Under the pieces are notes generated by a model, which ran no database searches, had not been told where the DNA came from, and saw only the letters and a list, made by a program, of their open reading frames with translations. 64,000 nucleotides of DNA, taken from the NCBI GenBank assembly GCA_013415865.1, contig CP058896.1, forward strand, positions 124,001-188,000, read 5' to 3'. The position numbers were made by a program, and so were the translations under genes. Positions within the stretch are counted from its first letter, which is position 1, and each line of letters opens with the position of its first letter. This DNA is from Methanomassiliicoccales archaeon (GTDB taxonomy: Archaea > Thermoplasmatota > Thermoplasmata > Methanomassiliicoccales > UBA472). Shown here in pieces: positions 15,191-61,636 of this stretch.

Positions 15191-15264
15191 CGGGCCCGTC
15201 GGGATTCGAACCCGAGTTCGAGGCTCCGGAGGCCTCTGTGATATCCAAGCTACACTACGGGCCC
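15191..15264 (-). tRNA. tRNA-Arg (anticodon CCG)
   Basis: The minus strand folds as a complete 74-nt tRNA: acceptor stem GGGCCCG/CGGGCCC, a D arm with AGCTTGGAT, anticodon stem GAGGC/GCCTC around loop CTCCGGA, and T stem TCGGG/CCCGA around TTCGAAT. The anticodon CCG reads CGG arginine codons. The discriminator is G and no CCA is encoded, so processing by RNase Z and CCA addition is needed. There is no sign of an intron. Confidence 0.95.
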
Positions 15265-33969: not shown

Positions 33970-33984
33970 AAGAATTATAGATGG

Positions 33985-34068
33985 TGCAGGGGGTGCGATT
34001 TGAACGCACGGACCACTAAGGACTAGACCCTCAATCTAGCGCCGTTGGCCATGCTTGGCTACCCCTGC
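33985..34068 (-). tRNA. tRNA-Leu (anticodon GAG)
   Basis: The minus strand folds as a class II tRNA: acceptor GCAGGGG/CCCCTGC, D arm with AGCCAAGCATGGCC, anticodon stem CTAGA/TCTAG around TTGAGGG, a long variable arm, and T stem GTGCG/CGCAC around TTCAAAT. The anticodon GAG reads CUC and CUU leucine codons. The discriminator is A, and the three following bases (33982-33984) encode CCA, unlike the tRNA-Arg of this window. Confidence 0.95.
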
Positions 34069-34191: not shown

Positions 34192-34490
34192 GCCAGGAGA
34201 GGAAGGGCGGCCGACGGTAGGGCGAAGGCCCAGCTGAGGAAGTTCCCCCCTCCACGAGAGCGGTGGGCCGCGCGAGCGGCCTGGTGAGAACCAGGGCAAG
34301 GACGCAGAAACGACACAGCCCGTGCAAAAGGATGATCCGTAAGTCGGTGACGTTCCTCGGGATCTGGTGAAACGGTGACTCCCCACCGGAGCAAGCCCAA
34401 ACAGCTGGGATGACGATCTCAGGACCGGCGGGTAGGGCGCTTAGTTGAATGCCGCCTGAAACAGAAGGGGGACTACTATCCTCACCTGGC
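34192..34490 (+). ncRNA. rnpB: RNase P RNA
   Basis: This roughly 299-nt RNA has the universal RNase P core. CR-I GAGGAAGTTCCC (from about 34234) and CR-V ACAGAAGGGGGACTA (34461-34475) form helix P4. Between them lie GGTGAAACGGTG, CGGAGCAAGCCCAAA and GGGTAGGGCGCTTAG in the standard order. The ends pair as P1: CCAGG and GAGGA at the 5' side with TCCTC and CCTGG at the 3' side. It processes pre-tRNA 5' ends. It lies divergent from tRNA-Leu with its own TATA box. The presence of both P1 and the core makes the call firm; the exact ends are set by P1 pairing. Confidence 0.92.
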
Positions 34491-48055: not shown

Positions 48056-50752
48056 ATGGTGGCGATATTTGTGTCTGTGAACCGAGGGTCGAGAAAGTCG
48101 TTGCTCACGGCCCGTGAGAGGGTGTTGGTCCACCTGCTGCCTATGCAAAAGTTCGCCCAAGATGCCAATGTGCCCCGTTCTGTGACGCAGGACGGGATCG
48201 CAGAAGCGGTCGATGTTGGACGGAACAATGTAGCGAAGATACTTCAGGAGCTTGAAGATGAAAAATTGATCGAGGTCTCGACCAGACATGTTAAAGGTCT
48301 GCCAAGTGTAAGAAAGGTTTATTTCCTTACGCACGACGGGTTCGAAACGGCAAAATCTCTGAAAAATGAGATGGAGTCGCTGAAGATAAAGGTCATCGAT
48401 CTTAAAGGAGAGGTGCATGAAGATGAGGTTGGAAAATTAGCCTCTTACATTCCTGGAAACTATTCTTTCCTTGAACTTGCGAAAGGGATCGAAAGAGGAG
48501 TTTTTGACTGTAGGTATTTTCACGAGTCAAAGGTGAAAGAGGAGCGCAGGTTCGTCGATTTCACCGATAAAAAACCAGCCGTCCATACCTTTTTTGGCAG
48601 GGAGAAGGAGATGAAGGTCTTGATGGACCTTATTACCTCAGATTCGCCGAAAGCGGCCGTCATCTTCGGGATCCCAGGGATTGGTAAAACGACCCTTATA
48701 GCTAAATTCGCGCAGGAGGTCCGTGACCGCACCAATGTGTTCTGGCTAAAGGTCCATGAATGGGTCAACGTCAAAGGTCTCCTAAGACCTCTCGCAGAAT
48801 TTCTTTCTCAATCTGGAAAAAAGAATTTGGAGTGGTATCTCGGGCAGACAGAGTCTCCTAATGTAGGAGAGGTGCTTCAGATACTGACCAACGATCTTCG
48901 GAACGTCCCGACCTTGCTGATTTTCGATGACGTTCAAAAAGGGGAAGAGGCGGTAAAGGACCTCGTGAGGGCGATCATGGAAGTACTGGAAGATATGCAA
49001 TCGGTGAGATTGGTGTGTGCCACTAGAGATCTACCTCTGTTCTATTCCCGTTCGCTTGTTGTGCAAAACAAAGTGAGAGAGATTCAGCTGGAGGGTCTTG
49101 ACAAGGAAAGCTGTGTTAAGATGCTCAAGGCGAGATCGATCCCTGATGATCAGATGCAACAGTTGATCAAAATCACGGAGGGACATCCTCTATTTCTCGA
49201 GCTGATAGAGGATGTAAAGAGCGCCTTGGGGAAGAACATCCGGATGTTCATCGACCAGGAGGTGATTTCGAAACTTGATGTTGCAGAAAAAAGGATAATG
49301 AACGTTGCTGCAGTGTTCAGATATCCAGTCATCATCGACGCTTTCTTCATTACGGAAGAAGAGATGAGGAAAGATCTTCACGGTGAAGACATCGGGTTAG
49401 AGGATATAGACTACACCATCTCCTATGAGACCGTGGACTCACTTCTTGCAAAATCGATCCTGCATGAATCTATAGGCCGTACCATAGGGATGCATGACCT
49501 TCTTAGAGAATTCACATATTCACGATTGACCCCTAGACAAAAAACCATGTATCATCGCGCCGCCTCAAAATTCTACATTCAGGACAGTTCCCTTTCATCC
49601 CAAGTTGAAGCACTTTACCACTGTATCATGGGAAAAGAGCTGTCGAAGGCCGTTGAGATCGCGGCAGGTAGAGGTGCCGAGATCGTGAGGCGCGGATATT
49701 CGAACCAATTCGCGCCATTGCTCGAGAAATTGTTGGAGGAACCAAGCATCAAGGAGAGGGAAGAGCTTCTACTCTTACATGCTGATGTGATGGACCTCCG
49801 TGGAGAGTATGAAAAGGCTGTCATGGAGTATTGTGAGGCTATCAAGTTGATACCACCAGAATCTGAAAAGAGATTATTGGCGGATATCCATCGGAAGATC
49901 GGTGCAATTGAACTTAAAAGGTCCAGATATGACCGGTCCATGGAATCTCTTACTCTCGCGTTGACCATGGCTACCGAATCGGGGGACCCGCTGACCTTGG
50001 CAGAGGTACATTATGACCTAGGGGGGGTATACGAGAGGCGAGGTCTTTATGAGCTGGCAATGGAAAATTTCCGGTCTGCGGAGAAATTTGCTGAAAAGGC
50101 TGGTAACCGAACAGCGTTAGGAAGAGCCTTGTATGGCCATGGGAGAGTGAGAGCGGGCCTGTCCGATTTTGAAAGAGCTGTAGACCTTAAAAAGTCAAGC
50201 CTGTCGGCTTTGGAAAGGGCCGGTGACATTAATATGATGGCCAAAGCCTGCATCGGTCTAGCAAACGACCTAAGACAGATCGGTCGGACAGATGAGGCAC
50301 TAAGATATCTTGAAAAAGCGGTGGACCTGGCCAATTCGATTGGGGATGTCAGTACCTTAGCTTATGCCCTTTCCAATATGGCAGCAGAATATCTTGAGAG
50401 AAAGGACCTTGTCAAGGCCGAGGCCCTGATCCATAGGTCGGCAGAGATATTCGAGAAGATCGACGATAAGATGATGCTGGCAAGCACCCATATGTTCAAA
50501 GGTTTCCTTTTGAAGCTTAGAGGTGACTGGGAATGGTCCAAGGAAGAATTCATTCAATCTATCCAGATCACCAAGGGCCTTGATGTTCCCTCAAGGACCT
50601 GCCATTGGATATTCGAAATATCAAAGGTTTATGCTGAGATGGGAGAGTCCAGTGAGGCGAAAAGATTGTTCATGGAAGCCAAAAAGGTTGCAGAAAAGAT
50701 TGGCAACTCCAAGTTGATGTCCATGGTGGATGAGGAGATGGCCAAACTATGA
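48056..50752 (+). CDS. Winged-helix STAND ATPase with TPR repeats
   Basis: The 898-residue protein has an N-terminal winged helix (about 15-105; QDGIAEAVDVGRNNVAKILQELEDEKLIEV), a linker, and a STAND-type NTPase: FFGREKEMKVLMDLI, Walker A FGIPGIGKTTLIAKFA near 201-215, Walker B TLLIFDDVQ, and sensor VCATRDLPLFYSRS. A helical NB-ARC-like region with a GMHDLLREF motif is next. From about 560 to the end come tandem TPR repeats (AEVHYDLGGVYERRGLYELAMENFRSAEKFAEKAGN and similar). This is the layout of ATP-switched, ligand-sensing transcription regulators of the MalT/AfsR kind; STAND proteins also act in antiviral defence. The trigger is unknown. It stands next to two DUF835 genes and a repeat protein. 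Confidence 0.9.
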   Translation: MVAIFVSVNRGSRKSLLTARERVLVHLLPMQKFAQDANVPRSVTQDGIAEAVDVGRNNVAKILQELEDEKLIEVSTRHVKGLPSVRKVYFLTHDGFETAKSLKNEMESLKIKVIDLKGEVHEDEVGKLASYIPGNYSFLELAKGIERGVFDCRYFHESKVKEERRFVDFTDKKPAVHTFFGREKEMKVLMDLITSDSPKAAVIFGIPGIGKTTLIAKFAQEVRDRTNVFWLKVHEWVNVKGLLRPLAEFLSQSGKKNLEWYLGQTESPNVGEVLQILTNDLRNVPTLLIFDDVQKGEEAVKDLVRAIMEVLEDMQSVRLVCATRDLPLFYSRSLVVQNKVREIQLEGLDKESCVKMLKARSIPDDQMQQLIKITEGHPLFLELIEDVKSALGKNIRMFIDQEVISKLDVAEKRIMNVAAVFRYPVIIDAFFITEEEMRKDLHGEDIGLEDIDYTISYETVDSLLAKSILHESIGRTIGMHDLLREFTYSRLTPRQKTMYHRAASKFYIQDSSLSSQVEALYHCIMGKELSKAVEIAAGRGAEIVRRGYSNQFAPLLEKLLEEPSIKEREELLLLHADVMDLRGEYEKAVMEYCEAIKLIPPESEKRLLADIHRKIGAIELKRSRYDRSMESLTLALTMATESGDPLTLAEVHYDLGGVYERRGLYELAMENFRSAEKFAEKAGNRTALGRALYGHGRVRAGLSDFERAVDLKKSSLSALERAGDINMMAKACIGLANDLRQIGRTDEALRYLEKAVDLANSIGDVSTLAYALSNMAAEYLERKDLVKAEALIHRSAEIFEKIDDKMMLASTHMFKGFLLKLRGDWEWSKEEFIQSIQITKGLDVPSRTCHWIFEISKVYAEMGESSEAKRLFMEAKKVAEKIGNSKLMSMVDEEMAKL

Positions 50753-50799
50753 AAAGAAATGAATTGATAAAGGGTTTCAAAGGGAGGGAACCCTTTAGC

Positions 50800-51134
50800 T
50801 CAGAAGGCCAAGATGTGCGGGTCTGTGCCCGGGATGATGTGCGGGTCTGTGCCCGGGATGATGTGCGGGTCTGTGCCCGGGATGATGTGCGGGTCTGTGC
50901 CCGGGATGATGTGCGGGTCTGTGCCCGGATGATGTGCGGGTCTGTGCCCGGGATGATGTGCGGGTCTGTGCCCGGGATGATGTGCGGGTCTGTGCCCGGG
51001 ATGATGTTGAAGTCAGAATCTGTTGAGAGAGAGAACCCAACTGCCGGGAGAGCCGCTCCCACGATCGCAAACATGCCTATTAAAATGGCAACCGAGCCGA
51101 GTACGGCCAGCAACATTTTTGGGAACTTCATCAT
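50800..51134 (-). pseudogene. Signal-anchored protein with eight IIPGTDPH repeats, frameshifted
   Basis: From the ATG at 51134 (after AAAGGTG) the protein begins MMKFPKMLLAVLGSVAILIG, a signal or anchor helix, then FSLSTDSDFN. Three copies of an 8-residue repeat, IIPGTDPH, follow before a one-base deletion near 50927 shifts the frame. With one C restored the remaining five copies read in frame and end in ILAF and a stop at 50800, 47 bases past the convergent STAND gene. Without repair the frame runs into that gene with no sensible protein. The repeat rich in Asp, His, Pro and Gly could bind metal or a partner outside the cell; this is a guess. Confidence 0.65.
50812..51006. repeat. Tandem 24-bp repeat, eight copies
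   Basis: The plus strand repeats gatgatgtgcgggtctgtgcccgg, 24 bases, with copies of tctgtgccc at 50822, 50846, 50870, 50894, 50918, 50941, 50965 and 50989. Seven spacings are 24 except one of 23 between the fifth and sixth copies, where a G is missing. The copies are otherwise nearly identical, so recent expansion or slippage is likely. Since 24 is a multiple of 3, all reading frames stay open across it, which explains the false open frames on both strands. Confidence 0.9.
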
Positions 51135-51340
51135 ATTCACCTTTCATGAATTTTTATGAAAGGTGTGTGGCTTTGTGAGTATTAAAATAGTATTTGAGCA
51201 TGCTACAAAAAAGATTATATACTAAACATTTTAAAATATGTTATATATTATATTATTAATGATTTATATATCTGTGAGAAATGAGTCCAAATTGCTAAAA
51301 AGATTGAAATAATAGACCTCTTCCTTTATTCCATCATTGC

Positions 51341-58779: not shown

Positions 58780-60369
58780 TCAGTGTTTCTTTTCCTTAGG
58801 ATGCTGATGCACAGCCTCGGCCCGCTCTTTCTTTGCACGCTCCTGCTCGTACATCTCCATCCTTTCCTCTACATCTTTGCTCTTCGGGATGGCCTGCTTT
58901 ACGACCGCCATAGCACCCATTCCCAGCTCGAAGAGCATGGGTGGGATCTTGATATTTCCTCTGATAGACGTACCCACCATCTTCCCAGGGTTCATAATGT
59001 CGGTGGGGTCGATGGTGTTCTTGATCATGCGTATATATTTTGCCCCTGGTCCCCGTATCTTGTCCAGGTTAGATGCGAAGAACGAACCGAAACCGAGAGG
59101 ACGACCACCATATTCATAGGATATGTCTGATAGCTTGCTGTTGAACCCGAAAGATGTGAGGTTCACAAGGTTGTCGAAGTCCGCCAGGTAGTAGGGCATG
59201 AACATCACTGTGTTGCGGTCCGCGACCGTCCCAATTATCGCCCCGGTCATGTTCAGCTGGTCCAAAAGCTTGTTCGTCCTCTTTGTGAACTCAGCAAAGT
59301 GCTTCAAGGGGACTATCACCTCACCAGGGATGCTGCCGAGTCCTATCTCGCGGACCCTGAACTCGTAACAGCGCTCCTCCCATTCATGTTCGGCGACCTC
59401 ATCGCTCATCCTTTTTGCCCCATGCTTGGCCATGATCTCGTCAATGACCTTTTCCTCATAGGCGACGACCTCCTTTGCACCCTCGAGCTCGATGTTCACC
59501 ATAGCTCCTACCTCGGGGGCGTGGCGCCCTATCTTCCGGAGCATCTCAAAGTGCTTTCCATCTGAGAAACCTATATGTAACGGGTCAACGCGCTTGCGGA
59601 GTATCTCCATGAGAGGCGCCCCTGCGGCCTCTAGGCTATCAAAGGCATATGATAGTGCCTTCATGACCTCTGGTGCAGGTACCAACTTCAATGTAACCTT
59701 GCAGATCAGTCCCAAGGTCCCTTCAGAGCTGCATATGAGCCTTTGAAGGTTATAACCCGACATGTTGTCCGCAACAAGGTCGAAACCGGTGTTTATCAGG
59801 GTGCCATCAGGCATTACCACCTCCATGTTGCGGATGTTATCTGCCGCCCCTCCGTACTTCATTGATCCCATTCCGATGCCGCCTGTGGAGATCCACCCTC
59901 CTATTGTGGCTGATGGGAAGGAAGAAGGGTACGAACCGAGAAGAAGGCCTTTTTCAAGACATGCCTCGTAGACCTGTTTCCACGTCGCTCCTGGCTGCAC
60001 TGTTACCGTGAGATCTACTGGGTTGATGTCAAGGATATTGTTCATAAGGCCAGTAAAATCCACCAATATTCCACCAAAGACGGGCATGGACCCGCCCAGC
60101 CCCCACGTCGAGGAGCCGCGCGGTGTTATAGGTACTCCTTCCTCATAGGCGATCTTGACTATCTTGACCACATCATCAGTGTTCCTAGGCCTTACGACGA
60201 CATCTGGCACGTTTTTGAATGCAATCTGCGTCTCCTTTGGCAAAGGTGCAAGGTCGTGGCTGTAGAGCAACCTTTCCATCTTGCTCGTCTTCACGTTCTC
60301 GTGCCCGATCGCGTCCCTCAGCCTGGAAACGAGCTGGGGGTTTGCCGTGTTATCCTCTTTTGAATCCAT
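58780..60369 (-). CDS. FAD-linked oxidase (GlcD / D-lactate dehydrogenase-like)
   Basis: The 529-residue protein has the PCMH FAD-binding domain (VVRPRNTDDVVKIVKIAYEEGVPITPRGSSTWGLGGSMP; GSYPSSFPSATIGGWISTGGIGMGSMKYGG) and the FAD-linked oxidase C-terminal domain (KVTLKLVPAP; NPGKMVGTSIRG). It belongs to the VAO/PCMH family of D-2-hydroxyacid dehydrogenases and alkylglycerol-phosphate synthases. In an anaerobic archaeon it may oxidise D-lactate or glycolate, or be a lipid ether enzyme. No Fe-S partner (GlcF) is adjacent, and the tail is Lys/His-rich (RAEAVHQHPKEKKH). A TATA-like element lies near 60430 on its upstream side. Confidence 0.88.
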   Translation of the reverse strand: MDSKEDNTANPQLVSRLRDAIGHENVKTSKMERLLYSHDLAPLPKETQIAFKNVPDVVVRPRNTDDVVKIVKIAYEEGVPITPRGSSTWGLGGSMPVFGGILVDFTGLMNNILDINPVDLTVTVQPGATWKQVYEACLEKGLLLGSYPSSFPSATIGGWISTGGIGMGSMKYGGAADNIRNMEVVMPDGTLINTGFDLVADNMSGYNLQRLICSSEGTLGLICKVTLKLVPAPEVMKALSYAFDSLEAAGAPLMEILRKRVDPLHIGFSDGKHFEMLRKIGRHAPEVGAMVNIELEGAKEVVAYEEKVIDEIMAKHGAKRMSDEVAEHEWEERCYEFRVREIGLGSIPGEVIVPLKHFAEFTKRTNKLLDQLNMTGAIIGTVADRNTVMFMPYYLADFDNLVNLTSFGFNSKLSDISYEYGGRPLGFGSFFASNLDKIRGPGAKYIRMIKNTIDPTDIMNPGKMVGTSIRGNIKIPPMLFELGMGAMAVVKQAIPKSKDVEERMEMYEQERAKKERAEAVHQHPKEKKH

Positions 60370-60516
60370 CTGTAACCCTCAGGTCAATGATGTTAACAAG
60401 ATTGTAACCCGAAACTCATCATCCTATTTTAAATGTATTGCATACTGGCGATGGTGGAAACTAAATATCCCTTCTAAAAGAATAAACGTTCATTTTTATA
60501 TGGATGTCAGAAAGGT

Positions 60517-60805
60517 GGTCCGAGGATTACTGGGTCTCTGGGTACTTCGAACTCCGGCACCGTCAAGGGCATCTGCAGATCTCCGAGATCGTTGAGCCGT
60601 GTTCGCCCGTTCTCCGAACTGACTGGCCCGTCCTTGGACGGCAGACATGTTCTGGAATCCGCTCGAGGGGCACAGGTTTTTCACACTGTGTTTCCTTGTT
60701 GCGGACCGAAGCAAGAGCTTCGCAGCGAGACAGACACCATGGACATCATCCACAAATGATGCTGATATCAGTCTGCTTTCTCCAGAGCCTTTCAGCCTCC
60801 GGACC
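60517..60805. ncRNA. Candidate structured RNA, strand unresolved
   Basis: The 535-base gap between the oxidase and the coiled-coil gene has no convincing coding frame, but its ends pair in register. GGTCCG (60517-60522) pairs with CGGACC (60800-60805), AGG with CCT, CTG (60530-60532) with CAG (60793-60795), GG with CC, and CTCTGG (60536-60541) with CCAGAG (60782-60787). Interior hairpins include GAAGC-AAGA-GCTTC and a CACAG/CTGTG stem. TATA-like elements stand about 20-30 bases outside both ends (tttatatg at 60495-60502 for plus, ttatat upstream on minus). The size (about 289 nt) and GC content above the surroundings fit a stable RNA. It lacks the SRP helix 8 sequence and RNase P motifs on either strand. 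Confidence 0.5.
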
Positions 60806-60904
60806 GTATAATATGTAGGATGCCCTGAATATAAGTAATCTTCGGAGCCGAAATTTCGATTCTTCCAGATGGGGCTCTATGCGTTGCAATCGTGACGATT
60901 GTCG

Positions 60905-61138
60905 TCATTTCTTAGCCTTCTTCAGTTCCTCCAATTCTGCCCTTTTTTCAGAGATCTTCTTTGAGATCTTCTCCATCCTGGCCTCGGTCTTGGCCTTTAT
61001 CTTATCATATTTCTCCTGGCTGATCTCCTTTCTCTCAAGCTCACGGTGATGTTCGTCCAGCTCTTTTCTGTAGTCGGCCTTTAGAGCGTTCAATTTTTTT
61101 ATCTTCTCCTCGATCTTCTTGATCTTGTCCCCGAACAT
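60905..61138 (-). CDS. Small coiled-coil protein
   Basis: The 77-residue protein is made of Lys, Glu, Ile and Leu in heptad-like order (KIKKIEEKIKKLNALKADY; KIKAKTEARMEKISKKISEKRAELEELKKAKK), predicting two antiparallel or one long coiled coil. No catalytic residues are visible. It is alone between the RNA candidate and the GIY-YIG gene on the same strand. Function unknown; similar small coiled-coil proteins are common in Thermoplasmata and methanogens. Confidence 0.7.
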   Translation of the reverse strand: MFGDKIKKIEEKIKKLNALKADYRKELDEHHRELERKEISQEKYDKIKAKTEARMEKISKKISEKRAELEELKKAKK

Positions 61139-61207: not shown

Positions 61208-61636
61208 TCAGCTTAGCTCGTTCAGTAACCTTGGCAATACCGATTCCTCGATCCTATGGAGATGTGCCGGGCAATCGCAATCTGAAGAGCCGAACCCTTT
61301 GCATACCACCTCTGAACCGTTGAACCTATCGATCGTGCCATTGATCTCGCATTCATTGTCCGGCCCTTCAACGAGGAAGGCTGAGATCGGCTCAGCGACC
61401 TCCAATAGGTAATCTATATGCCAATGTCTCTTTTTTTTCTTTGAGAAATGCCGTCCGACCCTTGATTCTAGTCCGCTCTGGGCAGAGCCCACATAGGCAT
61501 ATAAACCCGCTTTGAAGCTACAACTCCCTAACGACCCTATCTCAAGGGTAGTATCCTGTGCGAGGTCGATTATGAGAACGTAGGAGCCCCTATGGAGCGA
61601 CCTTGTTCCCTTCACAACCGCAGCGGCATCTCTCAT
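61208..61636 (-). CDS. GIY-YIG nuclease-like DUF123 protein
   Basis: The 142-residue protein matches the DUF123 family of GIY-YIG-like nucleases: GSYVLIIDLAQDTTLEIGSLGSCSFKAGLYAYVGSAQSGLESRVGRHF, then HWHIDYLL and a Cys-rich end (CKGFGSSDCDCPAHLHRI). In some archaea and bacteria this domain is fused to endonuclease III, linking it to repair. Here it is free-standing. The flavoprotein gene is 12 bases upstream on the same strand, so they may be co-transcribed. Confidence 0.85.
   Translation of the reverse strand: MRDAAAVVKGTRSLHRGSYVLIIDLAQDTTLEIGSLGSCSFKAGLYAYVGSAQSGLESRVGRHFSKKKKRHWHIDYLLEVAEPISAFLVEGPDNECEINGTIDRFNGSEVVCKGFGSSDCDCPAHLHRIEESVLPRLLNELS

Follow-up and report, generated by a model that had tools for sequence, protein, structure and literature searches.

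The window, a stretch of 64,000 nucleotides (C1:124001-188000) within a genome that consists of one contig of 1,818,080 bases, carries on its minus strand a gene for a DUF123 protein (61208..61636; Pfam PF01986), a gene for a lysine/glutamate-rich small protein of 77 aa (60905..61138), a structured RNA gene that we designate type A (60517..60805), and a gene for a GlcD-like FAD-linked oxidase, hereafter glcD (58780..60369; Pfam PF01565 and PF02913). Genes for methanogenesis marker proteins 7 and 17 adjoin this region and, together with an archaeal RNase P RNA, mark the window as archaeal and methanogen-like. The sequence-only reading had described a noncoding gap holding a structured unit of about 289 nt and had left its strand open; our analysis confirms the unit and assigns it to the minus strand.

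This assignment draws on fold strength and on the pattern of base pairs. Over the 331-nt stretch flagged earlier, the minus strand folds 3.2 standard deviations better than shuffled sequences and the plus strand 1.3, and the 289-nt interval from 60517 to 60805 reaches a z-score of -4.5 on the minus strand (0 of 200 shuffles as good). Four relatives of the RNA gave z-scores from -3.4 to -4.7, the range that also holds with the window copy included, and for each of these five homologues none of 200 shuffles folded as well. Within the aligned helices, G-U combinations occupy 72 cells and A-C combinations 20, an excess that a minus-strand RNA would produce; 21 of the 72 belong to a single pair that is G-U in every copy. 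The plus-strand orientation was rejected on its poorer z-score (-1.3 versus -3.2) together with this asymmetry. The ends of the RNA, placed from the closing helix, would lie at 60805 (5′, beginning GGUCCGGAGG) and 60517 (3′, finishing CUCGGACC), and these ends pair with each other. A terminal helix of more than 20 pairs in several parts had been proposed; the multi-part helix with its internal loops stands, while the count was slightly generous, the minimum-energy fold holding 20 pairs in blocks of 6, 6 and 8.

Upstream of the RNA, a TATA box (TTATATT; 60828..60834, minus strand) lies at -29 to -23 from the 5′ end. Among the 46 of 47 copies for which 60 nt of upstream sequence were available, runs of at least six A/T occur between -36 and -19 in 43 and between -60 and -43 in 6, and the A+T content at positions -29 to -26 is 96-100%; a box so placed speaks indirectly for transcription. 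Where RNAs stand in tandem, each carries its own promoter. Downstream, a run of at least four T follows within 25 nt of the RNA in 27 of 47 copies and one of at least three in 38 of 47; the window copy has a weak 3′ end in this respect, with a run of only three T within that distance. A separate box, ATTTAAAATA (60425..60434, minus strand), lies at -65 from the ATG of glcD, and boxes like it, at -62 to -66, are found in the majority of copies from f1, f5 and f3 (f1, f2 and so on being family labels within the order), leaving aside rows in which another ATG had been caught (such as A1_G007 and B rows). TATA-like elements had been noted outside both ends of the gap: the one at 60828-60834 is the candidate box of the RNA, and the box of the glcD-like gene falls within the A/T-rich DNA beyond the opposite end. 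At the level of sequence, comparison across homologues demonstrates which strand the transcript is predicted to come from, that the fold is closed and multi-branched, that the TATA box keeps a fixed distance, and that the glcD-like gene has a promoter box apart from it.

The predicted architecture would run from the closing helix P1 through an internal loop (GAA/GUAA), the helix P2, a junction with P3 and P4, and a 3′ arm. P1 joins 60797..60805 to 60517..60525 (minus strand); 98.3% of its alignment cells are paired, five of its nine pairs have changed on both sides, and its strands alternate among copies between GCCCGGAG/CUCCGGGC, GCCCAAAG/CUUUGGGC and GCUCAGAG/CUCUGAGC. The adjoining GAA/GUAA loop resembles the UAA/GAN motif. 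In f1 type A copies—f1 being the family of the window's genome—P2 carries a further, loop-E-like internal loop, formed by GGAGAA on its 5′ side (60778..60783, minus strand) and CGAAGUACCCAG on its 3′ side (60538..60549, minus strand), both conserved in the alignment A2. P3 is a bulged apical hairpin with a UGUG tetraloop (60743..60762, minus strand), in which seven of eight pairs have changed on both sides; the loop reads UGWG in all 18 aligned type A copies of f1. P4, in which two of six columns fail to pair in the window copy, encloses variable hairpins and P5 (CGAAGC-UCUU-GCUUCG; 60707..60722, minus strand), six of whose seven helix pairs are changed on both sides across homologues. Sequence conservation in the 3′ domain centres on UCUGCAGA (60572..60579, minus strand), whose inner CUGCAG is invariant in these 18 copies, and the majority of f1 type A copies have CUGCAGA in the 3′ arm. 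Hairpins of the form UUUGNGGA occur in the 3′ arm of type B, a paralogous RNA described below, as well as in four of the six type A copies from f5. In the f6 RNAs read (L250, L253, L254, L256 and L259), the tip of the 3′ arm is a GGUGA loop (GAGGUGAU), as against a UGNG loop in other families.

Compensatory change in the stem had been named beforehand as a check on the RNA, and it proved abundant. An alignment of 21 copies (17 type A from f1 and f5 and four from f6, with the seven g2 copies of f1 left out) supported 40 pairs in six helices, in which 92.2% of 785 cells are paired, compared to 81.6% after shuffling and 35-42% after sliding. This percentage is biased upward because the structure was chosen from these very sequences, and changes on both sides of a pair are the better evidence: these were found at 24 of the 40 pairs, and none of 500 shuffles reached the observed value on any of five measures. 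For type B, 11 sequences supported 23 pairs, with 98.4% of 246 cells paired and double changes at 10 of the 23; here, 0 of 500 shuffles attained the observed values on four of the five measures, and the fifth, further pair types, was not above shuffles (73 of 500). Judged by these sequence patterns, selection is shown to act on the predicted closed multi-branched fold.

The RNA corresponds to no family in the Rfam library searched. A search with Rfam 15 returned no family at or above the gathering score inside the RNA, and with the threshold relaxed to E 10 nothing was found inside the window RNA, an f6 copy or an array of three RNAs. The sole permissive match nearby, snoR20a-like with E 2.9, falls in the flank at 60383-60449, outside the RNA. 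Family models of box C/D and H/ACA guide RNAs likewise gave no match inside it. Two large archaeal RNAs were located elsewhere, in keeping with the sequence-only reading, which had placed RNase P RNA at 34.2 kb and had noted the absence of the SRP helix 8 sequence: archaeal RNase P RNA (RF00373) maps to window positions 34195-34487 and not to the RNA studied here, and archaeal SRP RNA (RF01857) to C1:67250-67561 (158 bits), the only match in the genome at E ≤ 0.001. The suggestion of a new or lineage-specific RNA gains support from the lack of an Rfam match and from the strong compensatory changes; beyond what the sequence alone could reveal, the RNA belongs to an order-wide family with tandem paralogues.

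Some observations concern other parts of the window. Adjoining the RNase P RNA gene, ARAGORN reports a tRNA-Leu (gag) at 33982-34068 on the minus strand; the Rfam gathering search of the window lists one tRNA only, at 15191-15264, and the ARAGORN tRNA-Leu is absent from it. At 50812-51007, a 24-bp unit is repeated 8.2 times with 98% identity inside an ORF of 136 aa (50749-51159).

To map the distribution of the RNA, we searched for relatives by several routes. A DNA search over 101 genomes at a lax limit of E 10 gave four convincing relatives besides the query itself (G001, G002, G004 and G013), the other matches being short and chance-like; a motif pattern added G005, with two further new matches in G049 and G096. 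The stretches upstream of glcD in other f1 members yielded 18 type A and 11 type B copies. From such sequences, partial covariance models were built: R1 spans 84 positions at the 5′ end of A, R2 is based on the 3′ domain of B, and R3 takes in the 5′ 112 positions of 28 sequences. Both R1 and R3 match the window RNA, and R1 matched 18 of 22 f1 and all six f5 genomes. Across 147 genomes of the order, R3 matched 36 at E ≤ 0.01, of which 13 lie outside its training set (in some cases not far from it): 18 of 22 in f1, 1 of 1 in f3, 6 of 6 in f5, 11 of 15 in f6, 0 of 102 in f2 and 0 of 1 in f4. Among the f1 genomes missed, G008 and G011 have a type B match by R2, G019 has a type B hairpin at the very end of a contig, and in G015 neither DUF123 nor, at E 1e-120, a match to glcD was found. 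Given its absence from f2 and f4, the RNA is not essential to the order.

Matches beyond these families were examined and set aside. R1 matches in f2 had E values of 0.005-0.1, and none of the six inspected had the pattern of the RNA. When R3 was run over 400 genomes of the class, 17 outside the order matched (E 6e-4 to 0.04); we take these as chance, since the four best of the 17 lie in or opposite long open frames. A mobile origin was dismissed, with no match in phages or plasmids and no viral contig returned by two exact patterns. As far as searched, the RNA is thus restricted to one methanogen order, most likely Methanomassiliicoccales.

Gene order around the RNA varies on one side more than on the other. 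The f1 loci read DUF123, 77-aa protein, RNA or RNAs and glcD, with some lacking one or more of these; f6 loci read DUF123, RNA and glcD; and in f3 and f5 a different upstream gene precedes the RNA or RNAs and glcD. The DUF123 gene is thus conserved in f1 and f6, and the RNA-glcD link is kept where the upstream gene differs and so outlasts the upstream neighbour. The f4 and f2 genomes read carry DUF123 followed by glcD without the RNA, which indicates that glcD does not need it. In four f2 genomes (L265, L266, L267 and L268), the open frames that contain the glcD-like gene span 909-922 codons, compared to 529 aa for the window protein, and the gene may have been duplicated or fused there. The conserved 77-aa protein has no match in Pfam or NCBIfam; as tblastn found it only in f1 among the loci searched, we rejected it as an obligate partner of the RNA.

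In many relatives the RNA is represented by two paralogues, A and B, and in some by three copies in tandem; the window has type A only, and the best candidate for a type B copy elsewhere in its genome (E 0.95) was put down to chance. Genomes G007 (L193) and G010 (L195) show an A-B-A tandem in which each of the three RNAs has its own TATA box, and other genomes show B-A or A-B. In the f5 loci, an RNA lies directly upstream of glcD in each case, with B preceding A in five of six; f3 and f6 have a single additional RNA of this kind in front of glcD.

That a conserved structured RNA family exists is well supported, and what it does has to be judged from its setting. A leader acting in cis on glcD—a riboswitch or attenuator, sometimes in tandem, that senses a metabolite and lets transcription pass or stop at P1 and the following U's—would fit the gene order: in f1, f3, f5 and f6 the RNA immediately precedes glcD on the same strand, also at loci with a changed neighbour on the far side, and such an unbroken link is also what a cis-acting element predicts. 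The succession of P1 and a run of at least four T in 27 of 47 copies fits this as well. The conserved TATA-like box of glcD, however, sits between the RNA and the ATG in most copies read, each tandem RNA has a promoter of its own, and glcD is retained in the examined f2 and f4 genomes, which lack the RNA; we consider such a leader unlikely. An RNA with its own promoter and a closed fold, with tandem paralogues under separate promoters and a glcD promoter apart from it, favours a product acting in trans. As regards catalysis, the size, the closed multi-branched fold and the conserved purine-rich internal loops would suit a ribozyme that cleaves or performs another reaction, yet no Rfam ribozyme matches and nothing else points to catalysis, which makes it improbable.

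Known RNA classes can diverge beyond the reach of covariance models, and the RNA could in principle be a highly diverged member of one of them, whether a second RNA resembling RNase P or SRP RNA or an atypical guide RNA. However, this genome already holds canonical RNase P and SRP RNAs, and the searches to E 10 described above found nothing inside the RNA for any of the three queries; we rate this improbable as well. Leftover coding sequence or chance structure would find some encouragement in two long overlapping ORFs in the window (104 aa on the plus and 85 aa on the minus strand), but stop codons interrupt every reading frame in the set of 24 type A homologues, and the covariation and fold z-scores contradict it as well; this is hardly credible at all.

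We therefore favour, as probable, a single-copy gene for an intricately folded noncoding RNA of about 290 nt, independently transcribed and acting in trans as a structural RNA or the core of an RNP, in one methanogen order. Transcription would start at the 5′ strand of P1 and end shortly after its 3′ strand, and the RNA would form the core of either a stable RNP or an RNA-only particle, in which its conserved hairpin tips and its purine-rich internal loops would make the contacts. For the majority of members in two families, duplication would have given rise to paralogues A and B with a shared fold and neighbouring promoters. More speculatively, and in our estimate rather unlikely, A and B, each from its own promoter, might assemble together or via one protein that reads the recurring UGNG tips into a stable hetero-oligomeric particle confined to this one order, and lineages with a single RNA, such as the window's genus, might form a homo-oligomer. 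Such strong structural selection on an RNA of about 290 nt in four families, together with its repeated duplication in tandem, points to a function that has yet to be assigned.

To our knowledge, archaea have few large conserved structured RNAs apart from rRNA, RNase P, SRP and guide RNAs, and no paper describing this one was found by title or abstract start in the open-licence literature. The RNA is a new family without detected relatives, for which we claim no new biochemical activity. It shares with archaeal SRP RNA (RF01857) its domain of life, a length near 300 nt and a terminal closing helix, and with archaeal RNase P RNA (RF00373; 288 model positions) its domain and a multi-branched fold; in contrast to both, it is matched by neither model. 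OLE, ROOL and GOLLD RNAs are bacterial or phage-linked, whereas the RNA described here is archaeal, smaller (about 290 nt), single or in tandem paralogues, and without an Rfam match; permissive Rfam searches of it gave no match to these three Rfam families. OLE measures about 600 nt (PMC9723947), and OLE, ROOL and GOLLD are described as forming homo-oligomeric complexes (PMC12286853). Orphan candidate structured RNAs (PMC2864571) offer a parallel in being found by covariation, lineage-restricted and of unknown function; the words 'Methano' and 'Thermoplasma' are absent from the main text of that study. With OLE, ROOL and GOLLD, the RNA has in common an unclear function, an intricate and conserved structure and, as its promoter suggests, independent transcription.
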